Positions 14 to 20,816 of a DNA stretch of 22,743 nt are shown here, one piece after another. This DNA is from a virus: IMG/VR virus record IMGVR_UViG_3300037674_000148, positions 1 to 22,743 of that record; one strand, given 5' to 3'. The notes under the pieces were generated by a model. That model saw only the letters and a program-made list of their open reading frames with translations, ran no database searches and was not told the DNA's origin. A program made the translations under genes and the position numbers. How positions within the stretch are numbered: position 1 is the first letter of the stretch; every line of letters starts with the position of its first letter.

Positions 14-460
14 CTATTTAATATCTATTGTTTTTAACTTCATTTCATCTGGAATTATTTTCTCCATTGAAATTTTTAAAAGACCATCTTTCAACTCAGC
101 GCCTATAACTTTTACATCATTGGCAATTGTGAAAGACCTTTTGAACATCCTTTTAGATATTCCTTTATGTAATACTTCTTCTTGGTCCTTGTCAGAAGTT
201 TTATCTTCCTTCTTGGTCTCAATAGTAAGCATACCATTCTCTACCGATATGTTAATGTCTTTTTTATTGAATCCTGCTAATGCAATTTCAATATCGTAAG
301 TGTTCTTACCAGACTTAACTATATTGTATGGTGGATATGATGGTTGTACATCATAGATAAAATCATCATCAAACATTGATCCAAAATGATCAAAGATAGA
401 ATCAAATCCTACCGATACTGGTCTTAACTTGTTAAAAATAGATAATGCTCTGTTGGTCAT
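14..460 (-). CDS. hsp20: Small heat shock protein, Hsp20/IbpA family
   Basis: A 148-residue alpha-crystallin-type chaperone, expected to hold unfolding proteins in soluble form in the cytoplasm. The alpha-crystallin domain covers about residues 40-140. It includes a DIEIALAGFNKKDI stretch, a KGISKRMFKRSF segment and the late GLLKISMEK strand typical of the family. The KGI-R-F-R-F-ADYVKV-like region resembles proteobacterial IbpA more than cyanobacterial Hsp17. The ATG at 460 has a strong AAGGAGG ribosome site (466-472) five bases upstream. Hsp20 genes are common in T4-like marine phages, where they are thought to support capsid protein folding. The gene sits alone behind a structured leader and its own putative promoter. 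The product assignment is secure; its target is inferred. Confidence 0.93.
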   Translation of the reverse strand: MTNRALSIFNKLRPVSVGFDSIFDHFGSMFDDDFIYDVQPSYPPYNIVKSGKNTYDIEIALAGFNKKDINISVENGMLTIETKKEDKTSDKDQEEVLHKGISKRMFKRSFTIANDVKVIGAELKDGLLKISMEKIIPDEMKLKTIDIK

Positions 461-498
461 ATAAACCTCCTTTTGTTAAGCAAAGTTTCTATATAATG

Positions 499-527
499 AG
501 AGCCCTTAATGGCACTCTCTATAAGGG
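499..527 (-). promoter_or_regulatory. Competing hairpins in the hsp20 leader
   Basis: Two inverted repeats overlap in the hsp20 5' leader. CCCTTA at 522-527 (minus reading) can pair with TAAGGG at 503-508. Alternatively GAGAG/CTCTC arms inside the same stretch can pair. The two folds exclude each other. A further CCCTTA copy on the plus strand lies at 558-563. Role unknown; a temperature-responsive leader is only a possibility. Confidence 0.35.
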
Positions 528-529
528 TA

Positions 530-557
530 TATATAATCATTTATTCCTATATTACAA
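530..557 (-). promoter_or_regulatory. Putative sigma70-type promoter for hsp20
   Basis: Minus-strand TTGTAA (552-557) and TATATA (530-535) are separated by 16 bases. They lie upstream of the hsp20 leader, which would be about 60 bases long. The region is AT-rich, so a chance match is possible. The location between the bS21/hairpin region and hsp20 fits an independent promoter. Confidence 0.4.
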
Positions 558-562
558 CCCTT

Positions 563-604
563 AAAATGGTAGTTTTTTTGAGTTATAGACTTCAAAAACT
601 ACCA
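563..604 (-). terminator. Long hairpin, probable 3' end of the bS21 transcript
   Basis: Reading the minus strand, TGGTAGTTTTTGA (604-592) pairs with a TC-A7-CTACCA arm (581-567). This gives about 13 base pairs with a two-base bulge and a loop of roughly ten bases. The following T-run is only four bases (566-563), so this may be a weak terminator or a structural/processing hairpin. It separates the structured region next to bS21 from the hsp20 promoter. Confidence 0.45.
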
Positions 605-638
605 AAAAATAGTCTGCTACTTTAGTTTGTTTTTTTAA

Positions 639-782
639 AGTGGTGCGAAACTAAGCGCAAATGCTTAAACAATCCACTATTCGGTTTTTAGTCCGTGAGA
701 CAAGGTTACCGACTACCTCCAACGCCATCAGGATTTATGAATTACCTGACATAATATATTTAGGTCACCGCCTAACGTTGGA
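639..782 (-). ncRNA. Candidate structured RNA between bS21 and hsp20
   Basis: The stretch contains no ORF but many well-nested inverted repeats. A seven-pair stem TCCAACG/CGTTGGA (718-724 with 776-782) closes a three-way junction. The junction holds TCAGG/CCTGA (728-732 with 745-749) and TTAGG/CCTAA (760-764 with 771-775, six-base loop). Next come TCGGT/ACCGA (681-685 with 708-712), enclosing GTC/GAC, and AGTGG/CCACT (639-643 with 674-678), enclosing TAAGC/GCTTA (652-656 with 663-667). It begins six bases past the bS21 stop codon. The minus strand is chosen because it would be co-transcribed with bS21. I see no tRNA, group I intron or known riboswitch core. It may be an independent ncRNA, a cis-regulatory 3' UTR or an unrecognised known family. 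Confidence 0.5.
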
Positions 783-787
783 AACTC

Positions 788-1015
788 TTAATTCTTTCTA
801 ATAGGACCAATACCAAGTTCTCTATTTAACTTGGATTGTTTCTTCTTAAAATTCTTAATACCTTCTTTTTTCTTCTCTCTTTTTATCTCCGAAGGTTTTT
901 GAAAGTACTGCCTACGTTTAAGTTCTTTCATAAAGCCATCTTTTTGGAGTTTTTTCTTTAAAACTCTCATAGCTTTTTCAATATTTCCGTTTCTTACTTC
1001 AACCGTTATACTCAT
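788..1015 (-). CDS. rpsU: Ribosomal protein bS21
   Basis: A 75-residue, very basic protein that matches bS21 along its length. It has an N-terminal ITVEVRNGNIEKAMRVLKKK strand-helix, then the K-GF-E-RRQYF-KPSE-KR signature and a lysine-rich tail. bS21 sits on the small ribosomal subunit near the mRNA exit and Shine-Dalgarno duplex and affects initiation. Phage copies are known, including in pelagiphages, and are thought to enter host ribosomes late in assembly and favour viral messages. The ATG overlaps the stop of the upstream zinc-ribbon gene (1012-1015), so translation is probably coupled. A strongly structured non-coding stretch follows its stop. Family assignment is secure; translational takeover is inferred. 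Confidence 0.9.
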   Translation of the reverse strand: MSITVEVRNGNIEKAMRVLKKKLQKDGFMKELKRRQYFQKPSEIKREKKKEGIKNFKKKQSKLNRELGIGPIRKN

Positions 1016-2794: not shown

Positions 2795-5173
2795 TTAAGC
2801 GACCTGCTGGATGAATTTACTCAATACTACTCTGGAAATCAGACGATTCGCCATTGATTTACCAAATAATCTTTTAATATCACCCTTTTTTGCGTCCTCT
2901 TTTAGTGTAGATAAGTCAACGTTTTGGACGTCCATTGATTTACCGTTTAAAAGATAGTACTCATCATATCCATCTTTTGAAATTGCTAAAGACTTGTCTT
3001 TTAAAAATTTCTTTCTCATTAAATCTCTATCATTAATTTTGGTCATTCTACCGTTGATTGTTTTATAATTTTCAACGTGTCTATCAAACTCCCACCTTCT
3101 ATTGTTTTTAAGTATAAAGAAACCTATTGCTTTAACACCATATTTTTTTCTAATCATATCTAATAATGTTGATGTTAAGTTTTCAGAAGTTCTCCAATAT
3201 GAATCTTCATTGTCTTGTTGATACCAAAATTTCTTACCATCTTTAATAACAACGGTCTCCCCGTCCTCGTGGTGTGGAGCAAACTCTTCTTTACCTGAAA
3301 CCTCATCTACTTTAGTTTTCCAAACATTACTACCACCACCGTTGGCACCACCATCTGTTAAGGTAATAAACGTCATTTTTTCTATATTGTATTTCTTCTT
3401 CATCATTGGTACTAAATCTTGACAAGCAACTAAAGCTTCATTTAATGGTGTAGAAGATAAATAAAATCTTTCTGGTATACTAATTGCTGAACCTTTAGGT
3501 ATATCCTCATCATTCATACCACTTCCATTTCTTCTTCTTCTATACCAAGAATATCTATCAGTATAATACTCTGCTAATTGAAATAGATATAAACAAGATT
3601 TTTCTAATTCTTTTTTCTTCATTCTATGAGACGCAACATTAACTAGATTAACATAATCTAAAGCAAGGTCTCCTTCTTTAAAATTAAAACACTCCATAGC
3701 ACATTGGTGTCTAGTTCTATCTGATCTATGTTTTTTTGAATCATTAAATAAATAAACTTCAAATGGTATTTGTACTTTTTGGCAAAACCATATTAAGTTT
3801 AATAATTGGTGTACGGTTTTATCAATTACATCTGACATTGAACCAGACCAATCTAACAACATCATCATACCGTGGTTTTTATCGTCTGGTAATATTGTTA
3901 ATCTTTTAAAAATATCTTCTGAAAATTTATAGTCTTTTAATTTTAATGGGTCTATAATACCTGTCTTATCAATACTAGCTCTTTTATAAGCACTAGCAGA
4001 TTTTTTCATTTCAAATTCTTTAACCAAATACATAACCGTTTTATGGTTATTCTTTTTAAATCTTTTAAATTTCTGTTGTAACCATCTATACCAATCTACG
4101 TGGTCAGTTGACCATTGGCCAGTAAAACTTGATCTATTATTCGTATCCATTTCTTTTAAAAATTCTTTGTAAGTAGTCATAGTATTTTTTAAATTAGATT
4201 TTGGTAAATTTACATACTTATAACTATGTTCTTTATCTAATAAAGAGTCTTTTTTATTCTCATAATAATCATCTGTAATTGATCTTAACATATCTTCATC
4301 TGGTGCTCTCTTAACAGCAACGTCATCACCACCAGCACCTAAAGGATTACCAGTTTGAGACTCTTTAGAATCTTTTTTATCTTTTTCTTCATCACCGTCT
4401 CCTTCTTCGGAACCAGTTTCTTCTTTTTTAGTTGTTTCTTCTGAATCTTTTTCCTCACCAGAACCATCTTCTGTTTGATTCTTATCTGAATTCTCTCCTT
4501 CTTCACCATCACCTTCCTTTTCATCTTCTTTTTGATAAGTCATTACAACTGGATGGTCATCAAAGTTTGGTAATTTTTTCATTTCTTCAAGGTCTTCTTT
4601 TGCCTTGTTCATTAATTCTTCAGCCATTTTTAAAACATCTTTAAATGTTTTCATTGCTTTAACTCTTGCAATAATATCGTGGTCTTTATTTGAAAATTTA
4701 AATGATCTTCTGAAAGAAGATTTAAAATGTAGGTTTATTTTATCAATAAACATTAGGTTCTTATCAAGGTCACCGATTGGCGTTAAACCAAAAAAGTCTT
4801 GGTCATCTAATATATCAAATCCGTTCATATAGTTTCTAACTACACCTGGATATTTCTTTTTTATTTTAGCGTCAATTCTACAATCTTCTAGTACATTAAC
4901 ATACTGCCTGAAATTCTTATCGTTTAATTTCTCCCAAGCTTTAGTTGGTGTATATAAAGCGTGAGCACATTCGTGTGCTATTAACATATCATATACATCA
5001 CCTGACTTAACTTTAAATATTGGTAATGTTAATACTCTGGATTTTGTATCAAATGAAGCAGTCTTAACATTGTTATGTTGTACTACTATATTTTCTGTTG
5101 CGATTAATTTTGCTAATTGTGATTTAGTGTCAATGTTTAATGATTGATTCATTTTAGTGTGTCCTTTTTTCAT
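2795..5173 (-). CDS. CobT-like VWA protein with HEXXH metallopeptidase-like domain
   Basis: A 792-residue protein with three visible parts. Residues 40-130 contain HECAH (67-71) followed by NVLEDCRID (93-101). This resembles the zinc site of VWA-associated metallopeptidase-like domains, with Glu96 a possible third ligand. Residues about 215-275 form a very acidic low-complexity linker, as in CobT. Residues 435-790 form a von Willebrand A domain with MIDAS elements DWSGS (441-445), a Thr in SSTPLNEA and TLTDGG (about 605-609). The start at 5173 is supported by GGAGG at 5180-5184; an ATG eight codons later also has a plausible site. It forms a pair with the adjacent AAA+ ATPase. The link to cobalt chelation is by family resemblance only. 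Confidence 0.8.
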   Translation of the reverse strand: MKKGHTKMNQSLNIDTKSQLAKLIATENIVVQHNNVKTASFDTKSRVLTLPIFKVKSGDVYDMLIAHECAHALYTPTKAWEKLNDKNFRQYVNVLEDCRIDAKIKKKYPGVVRNYMNGFDILDDQDFFGLTPIGDLDKNLMFIDKINLHFKSSFRRSFKFSNKDHDIIARVKAMKTFKDVLKMAEELMNKAKEDLEEMKKLPNFDDHPVVMTYQKEDEKEGDGEEGENSDKNQTEDGSGEEKDSEETTKKEETGSEEGDGDEEKDKKDSKESQTGNPLGAGGDDVAVKRAPDEDMLRSITDDYYENKKDSLLDKEHSYKYVNLPKSNLKNTMTTYKEFLKEMDTNNRSSFTGQWSTDHVDWYRWLQQKFKRFKKNNHKTVMYLVKEFEMKKSASAYKRASIDKTGIIDPLKLKDYKFSEDIFKRLTILPDDKNHGMMMLLDWSGSMSDVIDKTVHQLLNLIWFCQKVQIPFEVYLFNDSKKHRSDRTRHQCAMECFNFKEGDLALDYVNLVNVASHRMKKKELEKSCLYLFQLAEYYTDRYSWYRRRRNGSGMNDEDIPKGSAISIPERFYLSSTPLNEALVACQDLVPMMKKKYNIEKMTFITLTDGGANGGGSNVWKTKVDEVSGKEEFAPHHEDGETVVIKDGKKFWYQQDNEDSYWRTSENLTSTLLDMIRKKYGVKAIGFFILKNNRRWEFDRHVENYKTINGRMTKINDRDLMRKKFLKDKSLAISKDGYDEYYLLNGKSMDVQNVDLSTLKEDAKKGDIKRLFGKSMANRLISRVVLSKFIQQVA

Positions 5174-8065: not shown

Positions 8066-9776
8066 TTGCTAACCTTGTAAAGTTGTGTTCTTTTTCAAAC
8101 TTAATAACATCATTAAATTTGTCAAACATTATATCTCCTTTATGTGATATTATAAAAACATTTTCTTTTTGGAACGTTTTTAATATCTTTAAAAAATCAT
8201 CTGTACCTTGACCATCTAAACTTGAATCAAATATCTCATCAAGTACCAGTATATTGGTGTTGGTACTATTTTTCATACGAGCAATATCTCTCCAAGTAAA
8301 TAACAATGCAAGGTCTATTCTCATCTTTTCACCTTCACTAAAATTATTATAATTAAATTCGTCTCTAAATCTACTCTTCACCGTCTCATTAAACTCTTCG
8401 TCCAAATTAAATGATACAAAGAAATCCATTGCTTGTAAGTATTTATTAACCAGTTGATTCATTATAGGTAGATACTTCTTAATGATTTTTGCTTTAGCCC
8501 CTTTATCATTTAATACTTCTCTTAATACATCTACATAACCTTTTTCTTCTTGTACCTCTTCTAAATCTAATTTTGCCTTATCTAAATTAATCTTCATCTT
8601 TCTTAATTCATCTTGTATCTTTTCTATATCTGTCTCGCCACCATTGGTAAAGATATTAAGTTCTTGGTGTATGTTATCTGTTTGTTGTCTAATACCATCT
8701 AGTGATGTTTGTATCTTAGCCACATCTAAATTTAATTCCGTTATCTTATCTGATATAGCATTAAACTCATTTACTTTAGTTTCTGTTTTAACTATTTCAT
8801 TTAATAAATCTTTTAAACCTTTTTCTAACGTATCAACCTTCTCTTGTTCCTCTAACATCTTTTGTTTTTTAAATTCTGGTGTAAGTGATTGTGTACAAGT
8901 AGGACAATTATCATTATCTTCAAAAAATTCTAAACTATTTTTGTGATTAAGTAAATTGGTTTCTATCTTCGCTTCTAATTTTGCTAACTGATTAACCTTT
9001 TCATCTGTCTTTGGTCTATCAATTAATCTAGTTTTGGTTGCCTCTATCTGATTATTCAATTCATCCATCTTTTTAACATAATTTAATCTATCCTGTTCAT
9101 TTTTTTGTATCAATTTTTGTTTATGTGTTTGGACGTCTATATCCTTGGTCTGGAGAGACTTCAAGTACTTTGCTTCAGTTTCATATCTAGTTGCTATTAG
9201 GTCCGCTTGGTGGCGTGTCTCCACGACCTTTTTTTGGAGATCACTCTGTTGGGAACGTAAAAGTAAATCCATTAGGCCAAAAACTCTTATATCTAAAATT
9301 TCTTCCACTACTTCTCTTCTATAACGTGGTTTCATTTTCATAAATGGTTCATATGAAGAAGACCCTAAAATTACCACCTGAATAAATGACCTGTAATTCA
9401 GTTTCATAATATTTTTCTCTAGGTATTTTTGATAATCTACCACATTAGCGTGTTGATCTATTCTTTCACCATCACAATAAATTTCAAATATGTTTGGTTT
9501 AATTCCTCTTATAATCTTATATGATTTGGTACCTACTTCAAAATCTAATTCAACAATAGTATCTCCATTATTAATGGTGTTGACCATTTGTTCTTTCTTA
9601 ATAATTCTAAAAGGTTTATTAAACAAAGCAAAACATAAAGCGTCCAATAAGGTAGACTTACCACTACCATTTATACCTACTACCAATGTTGTATTGGCTT
9701 TGTTTAAATCAATCTCAACTGGCATATTACCAGAAGATAAAAAGTTTTTGTATTTAATTTTTTTAAATAATATCAT
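8058..9776 (-). CDS. 46: Recombination endonuclease subunit gp46 (SbcC/Rad50-like)
   Basis: A 572-residue SMC-type ATPase, close in length to T4 gp46. Walker A GINGSGKST (34-42), a long coiled coil (about 170-430) with a CPTC zinc hook at 291-294, an ABC signature NFSEGEK (478-484) and Walker B ILVLDEIFD (509-517) are all visible. With gp47 it resects double-strand ends to start recombination-dependent replication and helps degrade host DNA. The gene lies downstream of 47, separated by an oxygenase gene. Its ATG base overlaps the stop of that oxygenase. Confidence 0.95.
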   Translation of the reverse strand: MILFKKIKYKNFLSSGNMPVEIDLNKANTTLVVGINGSGKSTLLDALCFALFNKPFRIIKKEQMVNTINNGDTIVELDFEVGTKSYKIIRGIKPNIFEIYCDGERIDQHANVVDYQKYLEKNIMKLNYRSFIQVVILGSSSYEPFMKMKPRYRREVVEEILDIRVFGLMDLLLRSQQSDLQKKVVETRHQADLIATRYETEAKYLKSLQTKDIDVQTHKQKLIQKNEQDRLNYVKKMDELNNQIEATKTRLIDRPKTDEKVNQLAKLEAKIETNLLNHKNSLEFFEDNDNCPTCTQSLTPEFKKQKMLEEQEKVDTLEKGLKDLLNEIVKTETKVNEFNAISDKITELNLDVAKIQTSLDGIRQQTDNIHQELNIFTNGGETDIEKIQDELRKMKINLDKAKLDLEEVQEEKGYVDVLREVLNDKGAKAKIIKKYLPIMNQLVNKYLQAMDFFVSFNLDEEFNETVKSRFRDEFNYNNFSEGEKMRIDLALLFTWRDIARMKNSTNTNILVLDEIFDSSLDGQGTDDFLKILKTFQKENVFIISHKGDIMFDKFNDVIKFEKEHNFTRLANA

Positions 9777-10369
9777 TAAAATTTCATTGTTATATTACCA
9801 GACATACTAATTCTTTGTACATCTTTTGTTTTAAATGGATGTACATAATGATTCATCATAGCTGGAAATATATACATATCGCCGGTTTTAGGAAAAAATG
9901 TTTGTTGATGTGTTGTCCATTTAGGTATAGTTCTTTCTCCATAATTAAAGGTTATTGAACCTGGTCCTGCTGATTTACCTTTAAACTCTTTTCTTTCTTC
10001 TTCTAATTCTTTTGGTACATTTAAAAATAATACAAACGATAATGTATCTCCGTGTGTATGTGGTGGATTATAATCACCTGCTTTCATAAAATTAATCCAT
10101 AATTTTGTTAATTGTGGTGGAGTTGGAAATCCATTAATGTTGTGAAATTTATAATAACCATCTACATAAGCTTCAAATATAGATTTAGTTTTTGTATAAA
10201 ACCAATCTCTATCTTCTGCTGGAAATAACATTTGATGGTCTAAATTGCCTGCTAGTTCTTCGCTGTGTGATATGGTTAACTTTAAACCTTTTTCAGTACA
10301 TTGATTAATTAAGTCTTGGTCTACCTCTGTTTTAAATACATATGGACCCCAATAATAAAACATACTCAT
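9776..10369 (-). CDS. Putative 2OG-Fe(II) oxygenase between 47 and 46
   Basis: A 197-residue protein with WINFMKAGDYNPPHTHGDTL (91-110). This holds a likely HXD iron site (His106, Asp108) or His104, followed by SFVLFLNVP. A distal MMNHYVHPF histidine (174 or 177) and Arg186 before ISMSGN complete the pattern. This is the layout of a 2OG-Fe(II) dioxygenase beta-helix. It sits between the two subunits of the gp46/47 nuclease with four-base and one-base overlaps, so it is made with them. It differs from the second oxygenase at 7436-8065 and is not a simple duplicate. Substrate unknown; a link to DNA or nuclease modification is only suggested by position. Confidence 0.75.
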   Translation of the reverse strand: MSMFYYWGPYVFKTEVDQDLINQCTEKGLKLTISHSEELAGNLDHQMLFPAEDRDWFYTKTKSIFEAYVDGYYKFHNINGFPTPPQLTKLWINFMKAGDYNPPHTHGDTLSFVLFLNVPKELEEERKEFKGKSAGPGSITFNYGERTIPKWTTHQQTFFPKTGDMYIFPAMMNHYVHPFKTKDVQRISMSGNITMKF

Positions 10370-19784: not shown

Positions 19785-20816
19785 TTATCTTATTGGTGGT
19801 ACATACATTATTCCACCATCCTTCCAAAGTTTGTTTAATCCTCTTTCTAAAGCAAGTGGAGTTTTTGGTCCTACATTTCTTTCATAAGACTCACCATAGT
19901 TTCCTACTTGTTTAATAATATTATAACCGAATTTCATACCAAGTCCTAACATAGGACCAATATAACCTTCAACACCTAATATTCTTTTAATCTCTTTATT
20001 TTTTGCAGTCAACATCATATCAACATTATACATTGTGATACCTGCCTCTTCAGCATTAACCATAATGAAATGTGTCCATCTAACTACGTCTTCCCATTCT
20101 TGGTCGCCTTGTCTTACAAGTGGACCTAAAGGCTCTTTAGATATAATTTCTGGCAACACCATCCATTTACTAGGGTCTTCTGCGCCAGCTCTTGCTGAAG
20201 CTAAACCTGAAGCGTCTGTTGTGAATACATCACAATCACCACCAAATAATTTTGCTTTTGCCTCTTTATTACCTTCAACATATATTGGTTGATATGCCAT
20301 ATTGTTTTCTGCAAAGTAATCATTTAAATTTAATTCACTTGTAGTTTCTTTTGTAATACATACAAAAGCACCATCTAATTCTTTTGCACTCTTAATATCT
20401 AAATCTGTTGGTATTAAAAATCCTTGACCGTCATAGTAATTAACACCTGCAAATTCAAACATTAAATTAACATCACGGCTAATTGTCCAAGTAGTATTTC
20501 TCGCAAGTAAATCAATTGAACCGGACGCCAATGTTGGAAATCTTTGACCAGCATTTAGTCCTATAAATTCTACTTTACTTGAATCACCAAATACAGCAGC
20601 TGCAACTGCCTTACAGAAATCTACATCTAAACCACTCCAATTTCCTTCTTCATCTTGAGCAGAAAATCCAGGTAAACCTGCATTAACACCACATACAACA
20701 TAACCCCGTTCTTTTACGGTTTGAAGTAATCCTACTTCTTGATCTACTTTAATGCTCTTTGTTGGAGCACAACTCACTAATAATAATGTAATTAATATCG
20801 CAAATAATTTTTTCAT
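19785..20816 (-). CDS. Amino-acid ABC transporter substrate-binding lipoprotein, AapJ-like
   Basis: A 343-residue periplasmic binding protein family 2 member, full length. It begins with a lipoprotein signal (MKKLFAILITLLLVSC, lipobox LVSC, Cys16), then VKERGYVVCGVNAGLPGFS, GNWSGLDVDFCKAVAAAVFG, LLARNTTWTISRD and FAGVNYYDGQGF. It ends with VGNYGESYERNVG and GGIMYVPPIR. These blocks match AapJ, the general L-amino-acid binder of Alphaproteobacteria. No permease or ATPase genes accompany it, so it must use the host transporter or serve another purpose. AapJ is usually secreted without lipidation, so the lipobox is unusual. It sits between two DCLK-domain genes within the head cluster. Confidence 0.92.
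   Translation of the reverse strand: MKKLFAILITLLLVSCAPTKSIKVDQEVGLLQTVKERGYVVCGVNAGLPGFSAQDEEGNWSGLDVDFCKAVAAAVFGDSSKVEFIGLNAGQRFPTLASGSIDLLARNTTWTISRDVNLMFEFAGVNYYDGQGFLIPTDLDIKSAKELDGAFVCITKETTSELNLNDYFAENNMAYQPIYVEGNKEAKAKLFGGDCDVFTTDASGLASARAGAEDPSKWMVLPEIISKEPLGPLVRQGDQEWEDVVRWTHFIMVNAEEAGITMYNVDMMLTAKNKEIKRILGVEGYIGPMLGLGMKFGYNIIKQVGNYGESYERNVGPKTPLALERGLNKLWKDGGIMYVPPIR

Follow-up and report, generated by a model that had tools for sequence, protein, structure and literature searches.

A conserved hairpin and pseudoknot chain between bS21 and hsp20 in marine phages, a candidate late noncoding RNA

The window, the whole 22,743-nucleotide stretch analysed (a 22.7-kb virus record), carries T4-like genes, and bS21 is followed in it on the minus strand by hsp20 (Table 1). 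The approximately 330 nt separating both genes contain no minus-strand ORF of at least 40 aa, in agreement with a previous sequence-only reading of this DNA, which had described the stretch as ORF-free and placed in it a candidate structured RNA starting just past the bS21 stop. The element indeed begins about 5 nt after that stop. It is bigger than previously given, spanning about positions 783-568 in the bS21 sense (minus strand); the "long hairpin" before which it was supposed to end (615-568) belongs to the element as PK-V. The 3' boundary of the RNA is presumably the promoter-like sequence of hsp20. Elsewhere in the window (19785-20816, minus strand), a solute-binding lipoprotein-like protein is encoded (SBP_bac_3, E 5e-13), likely an auxiliary metabolic gene.

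Table 1 Features of the bS21-hsp20 region, listed along the minus strand (window positions; paired strands written 5' to 3').
Feature	Position	Strand	Pairing and basis
bS21 gene	788..1015	-	Upstream neighbour; Pfam Ribosomal_S21, E 4e-16
P1 5' strand TCCAACGTT	774..782	-	Pairs with 726-718; covariance model, covariation
AT box TAAATATATTAT	751..762	-	T4-type late promoter sequence TATAAATA(G) in many relatives; degenerate in the window
P3 hairpin	728..749	-	TCAGG 749-745 with CCTGA 732-728; conserved 12-nt loop TAATTCATAAAT 744-733
P1 3' strand GGCGTTGGA	718..726	-	Covariance model, covariation
PK-I S1	681..717	-	GGT 717-715 with ACC 706-704 (AGGT/ACCT); small hairpin in loop 3
PK-I S2	681..717	-	TCGGT 712-708 with ACCGA 685-681
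PK-IV S1	622..678	-	AGTGG 678-674 with CCACT 643-639
PK-IV inner hairpin	622..678	-	TAAGC 667-663 with GCTTA 656-652, loop ATTTGC
PK-IV S2	622..678	-	AGTTT 652-648 with AAACT 628-624; extension into GCTTA possible
PK-V S1	568..615	-	AGACT 615-611 with AGTCT 591-587
PK-V S2	568..615	-	GGTAGTTTTT 603-594 with AAAAACTACC 577-568
hsp20 promoter-like sequence	528..557	-	TTGTAA 557-552, TATATATA 535-528; sequence inspection
hsp20 gene	14..460	-	Downstream neighbour; Pfam HSP20, E 4e-17

Folded as a single sequence, the window barely beats its shuffles (minus strand: z -1.6, 10 of 200 shuffles equally good; plus strand: z -2.2, 7 of 200) and is thus unconvincing alone; the structure was settled by the relatives. 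These comprised bS21-linked IMG/VR loci, two cultured pelagiphages and the products of DNA-pattern scans independent of bS21, and more than 100 related viral sequences lie behind the conserved fold. All the loci retrieved by both P1/P3 pattern scans have bS21. Among cultured phages, HTVC008M and Mosig carry the element and Melnitz a reduced form of it; HTVC008M also has a tRNA-Gly gene (L219:241-314) immediately before bS21. The P1/P3 and late-promoter patterns had no exact match in 84,980 bacterial and archaeal genomes, and an exact-motif scan using the window's own PK-I sequence gave zero matches.

Directly after bS21, the relatives have in common a stem (P1), the AT box and a second stem (P3), whose loop measures 12 nt in every relative parsed (consensus CNNYTCRTAAGW) and whose C1-G11 is replaced by T1-A11 in the window, L011 and HTVC008M. 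P1 reads CCAACGTT/GGCGTTGG in the window, and TCCATGCC/GGCGTGGA, TTTACGCC/GGCGTAAA, TCTATGCC/GGTATAGA or CCTATAAG/CTTATAGG across the relatives. Blocks were anchored on the P3 loop, and P1 on visible pairing with single-nucleotide bulges removed in some rows; automatic pairing, confounded by chance stems, was dropped. In the alignment of 47 distinct relative sequences, 97.4% of the P1/P3 cells were paired, a percentage favoured by this anchoring, and both-sided changes, which the anchoring does not explain, occurred at 11 of the 13 pairs. The covariation score was 0.573, compared to 0.226 after shuffling and 0.07-0.15 with slid partners. The non-Watson-Crick cells included 35 G-U and no A-C when read on the bS21-sense strand, indicating that the RNA is on the minus strand, a point missed in the sequence-only reading. 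The both-sided compensatory changes, with G-U tolerated on one strand, identify the element at the bS21-hsp20 locus, on comparative grounds, as a real structured RNA. A covariance model whose alignment excludes the window matched its positions 782-718 (32.4 bits, E 4.8e-6), and each large relative carrying the element has one strong copy.

Several of the stems proposed earlier are present: TCCAACG/CGTTGGA (seven pairs), TCAGG/CCTGA, and AGTGG/CCACT enclosing TAAGC/GCTTA. The TTAGG/CCTAA arm, by contrast, is private to the window, the closest relative (L005) having a different hairpin and the others none. Consequently, the three-way junction that included it is not conserved, and the suggested GTGA/TCAC loop-loop contact, which needs this arm, is left unsupported.

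Downstream of P1, the modules of the relatives are H-type pseudoknots, and the comparison revealed three of them in the window that had gone unseen (PK-I, PK-IV and PK-V). The two stem-loops with inner helices described previously do contain those stems, but their topology is really that of H-type pseudoknots. A search based on a simple stacking energy over 59 intergenic regions, many of them related and so not 59 independent samples, found 64 pseudoknots at a stacking of -20 or better, compared to 2.9 (sd 1.4) in shuffles, and 155 at -14 or better, compared to 54 (sd 5.5). PK-V, whose loop 1 is rich in U and loop 3 in A, reached -23.6 in the stem search. Both stems changed in step in PK-I (62 both-sided cells compared to 16.9) and in the PK-II/V class (100 compared to 23.0); as the pseudoknots were preselected for pairing, only this count of coordinated changes is informative, and the cells represent sequences, not events. 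S1, the inner hairpin and S2 of PK-IV also vary in step across relatives.

Because the relatives carry extra modules after PK-I and before PK-IV, arrays differ in how many modules they have and in what order. Many arrays, but not that of the window, hold a larger module that combines pseudoknot pairing with conserved GGTCTTCGTAG ... GGGTGAGACCTACC sequence (minus strand of L002, about 3088-3171; likewise L010, L024 and L059). A hairpin module, TTCACTAGGGAACTGGTAGGGATCCTCAGCCTAGTGAA, is near-identical downstream of bS21 in L065, L073 and L195, whose arrays are otherwise different, which suggests module exchange between phages. Two tiny "hypothetical proteins" of Mosig (9619-9735 and 9748-9867; L002:3003-3251) overlap the structured RNA, and these ORFs were rejected as probably spurious. 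In P-SSM2, about 240 gene-free nucleotides between regA and purL (L222:1060-1300) resemble another structured RNA.

In HTVC008M and several contigs, a gene separates bS21 from the element; P1 is then missing, and a longer P3 stands directly behind CATAAATAG or TATAAATAG. Scanning IMG/VR for TATAAATAG followed by 3-10 nt and the P3 loop motif returned 82 stretches, with a box-to-loop spacing of 11 nt in 25 of 31 distinct sequences and of 10-12 nt in all 31. The late-promoter motif was also present upstream of the head protease gene in 8 of 9 relatives (in one as CATAAATA) and upstream of gp22 in 5 of 5. The T4 rule would place the transcription start inside or adjoining P3. The same T4-like late promoter sequence was used by others for Melnitz (PMC9004378); the search for late promoters in pelagimyophages was reported as unsuccessful by an earlier study (PMC7029224). 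TATATATA replaces TATAAATA in roughly half of the relatives with P1, and the late genes of some of these do use TATAAATA. The window's own box is degenerate and would make a poor late promoter, and no enrichment of TATAAATA itself was seen there; the promoter claim consequently rests on the relatives, from which we infer that the AT box may act as a promoter.

We hold, with about even confidence, that the element is a late, autonomous phage noncoding RNA; among the roles suggested by the sequence-only reading, the independent viral RNA is thus the one favoured, its transcription being predicted. T4-type late transcription would start at the AT box after bS21, or after the gene inserted there, and the transcript would begin at or inside the P3 hairpin and run through the pseudoknot chain to the promoter of the next gene. 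The base-paired 5' end and the compact pseudoknots, several of which would bring a U-rich loop 1 alongside the A-U pairs of stem 2, with an A-rich loop 3, in a triple-helix-like arrangement, would protect it from nucleases. Such an RNA would accumulate late and work in trans, the conserved P3 loop recruiting a partner and the variable pseudoknots giving stability or serving as decoys; its role is perhaps that of a nuclease-resistant decoy. Where bS21 is adjacent, read-through transcripts from this gene would form the additional P1 helix. Against this reading, P1 covaries as RNA although part of it precedes the presumed start, so that some functional transcripts must originate further upstream.

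The relationship with the neighbouring genes bears directly on this reading. At the 80 late-promoter loci examined, bS21 was never found within 100 nt, and it was not found in the methylophage Melnitz, in which a terminator-like hairpin precedes the reduced element and a P3-like hairpin (loop CAGTTCGTAAGT), a hairpin and a pseudoknot lie before hsp20. Judged from these gene orders, the association with bS21 is a matter of position and not a requirement. Two of the roles suggested previously, control of bS21 and binding to ribosomes, received no specific support; pairing between the P3 loop and 16S rRNA was also considered and was dropped as probably no better than chance. The element being tied to neither neighbour, an autonomous RNA is favoured.

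A possible but somewhat unlikely alternative is a cis-acting untranslated region, namely a 3' UTR of bS21 and/or a long 5' leader of hsp20, which would stabilise the mRNA or control the translation of its neighbours. In most relatives with P1, no more than about 20 nt lie between the bS21 stop and the start of the element, and P1 needs transcription from upstream; hsp20 lies within 1.2 kb downstream in 61 of the 80 contigs and no terminator was found between it and the array, which could therefore be a long hsp20 leader. However, the array is retained when another gene separates it from bS21, in Melnitz, and in the 17 of 80 contigs with room downstream but no hsp20 close by, and the next gene is often preceded by a promoter-like sequence of its own (L294, for instance, has a TTGACA/TATAAT promoter downstream of the array). 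The hsp20 leader proper (window 498-519, minus strand; L222 about 1700-1755; L220 about 1735-1775) is conserved: it has a promoter-like box, a G.G-mismatch hairpin (GAGAGTGCCATTAAGGGCTCTC) and a CTT-N4-AAG mini-hairpin on the Shine-Dalgarno, is similar in Melnitz and cyanophage P-SSM2, and is a possible control element of hsp20.

Known RNA families did not account for the element. Rfam 15 at curated/gathering thresholds gave no match in the window (permissive thresholds gave sub-threshold matches only), and in 31 further loci it detected only tRNA and the glutamine riboswitch, none over the array; the literature searched on pelagimyophages, Melnitz, phage bS21 and Pelagibacter RNAs contains no description of it. 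With the covariation found in the relatives, this upholds the earlier view of an undescribed structured RNA. The glutamine riboswitch (RF01739) was rejected, its matches in related contigs lying only elsewhere; it occurs downstream of hsp20 (64-67 bits; L065:1398-1448, L068:3488-3538), not beside tmRNA in those pelagiphage contigs, whereas in Melnitz it is beside tmRNA. SAM-II and SAM-V riboswitches are H-type pseudoknots common in Pelagibacter, but the element is not followed by a SAM-related gene; both were rejected, SAM-II giving a sub-threshold match over PK-IV (18.4 bits, cut-off 44) and SAM-V being absent from the matches at E up to 5.

Type III antitoxin RNAs (ToxI, CptI, TenpI) are likewise chains of short H-type pseudoknots, and their mimicry by viruses is documented: the phage pseudo-ToxI of PhiTE neutralises a host toxin (PMC5449768). 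By analogy, the element might be an antitoxin mimic silencing a ToxN-like host ribonuclease, which we judge quite unlikely: type III antitoxins are near-identical tandem repeats, whereas PK-I, PK-IV and PK-V differ from one another in sequence and layout and come after a hairpin at the 5' end whose loop is conserved, no ToxI family matched in Rfam, and no toxin gene lies beside the element in the gene orders seen. A DNA-level feature (operator, recombination or replication site), for which the inverted repeats adjoining a promoter-like box could speak, is very improbable given the G-U cells without A-C in P1/P3 and a pseudoknot topology that is meaningless in duplex DNA. A permuted tmRNA, or part of one, can practically be dismissed: the two-piece tmRNA of alphaproteobacteria and marine phages (RF01849) is also pseudoknot-rich and tmRNA is common in these phages (PMC9004378), but the element has no tRNA-like domain, neither ARAGORN nor Rfam finds a tmRNA here, and the tmRNA model matches far from it in 5 of the 10 genomes searched (HTVC008M, Mosig, Melnitz and two contigs).

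With somewhat less than even confidence, we propose that the autonomous late RNA represents a new class: a separately transcribed late RNA, widespread in phages of SAR11 and related marine bacteria, with exchangeable, non-identical pseudoknots behind a conserved-loop hairpin, which would act in trans on the RNA-decay, translation or defence machinery of the host. By way of analogy, strings of pseudoknots and exonuclease-resistant RNAs occur in plant and animal RNA viruses, where tandem pseudoknots are thought to stabilise the RNA or block nucleases. Pseudoknot strings are thus a known kind of RNA, and the present family is new and unrelated to those: the viruses are unrelated, and here a DNA phage would make such an RNA from its own late promoter.

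Phages of SAR11, the most abundant bacteria in the ocean, rank with the most numerous biological entities of marine waters, and we came across no earlier account of a dedicated structured RNA of this type in these phages. Conservation within the family suffices for covariance models, many of its members have the late-promoter signature, and its presence in cultured phages makes transcription, stability and function directly testable. Should the RNA prove to be a decoy that resists nucleases, the type III antitoxins and the pseudoknot strings of RNA viruses would have in it a counterpart from bacterial viruses.
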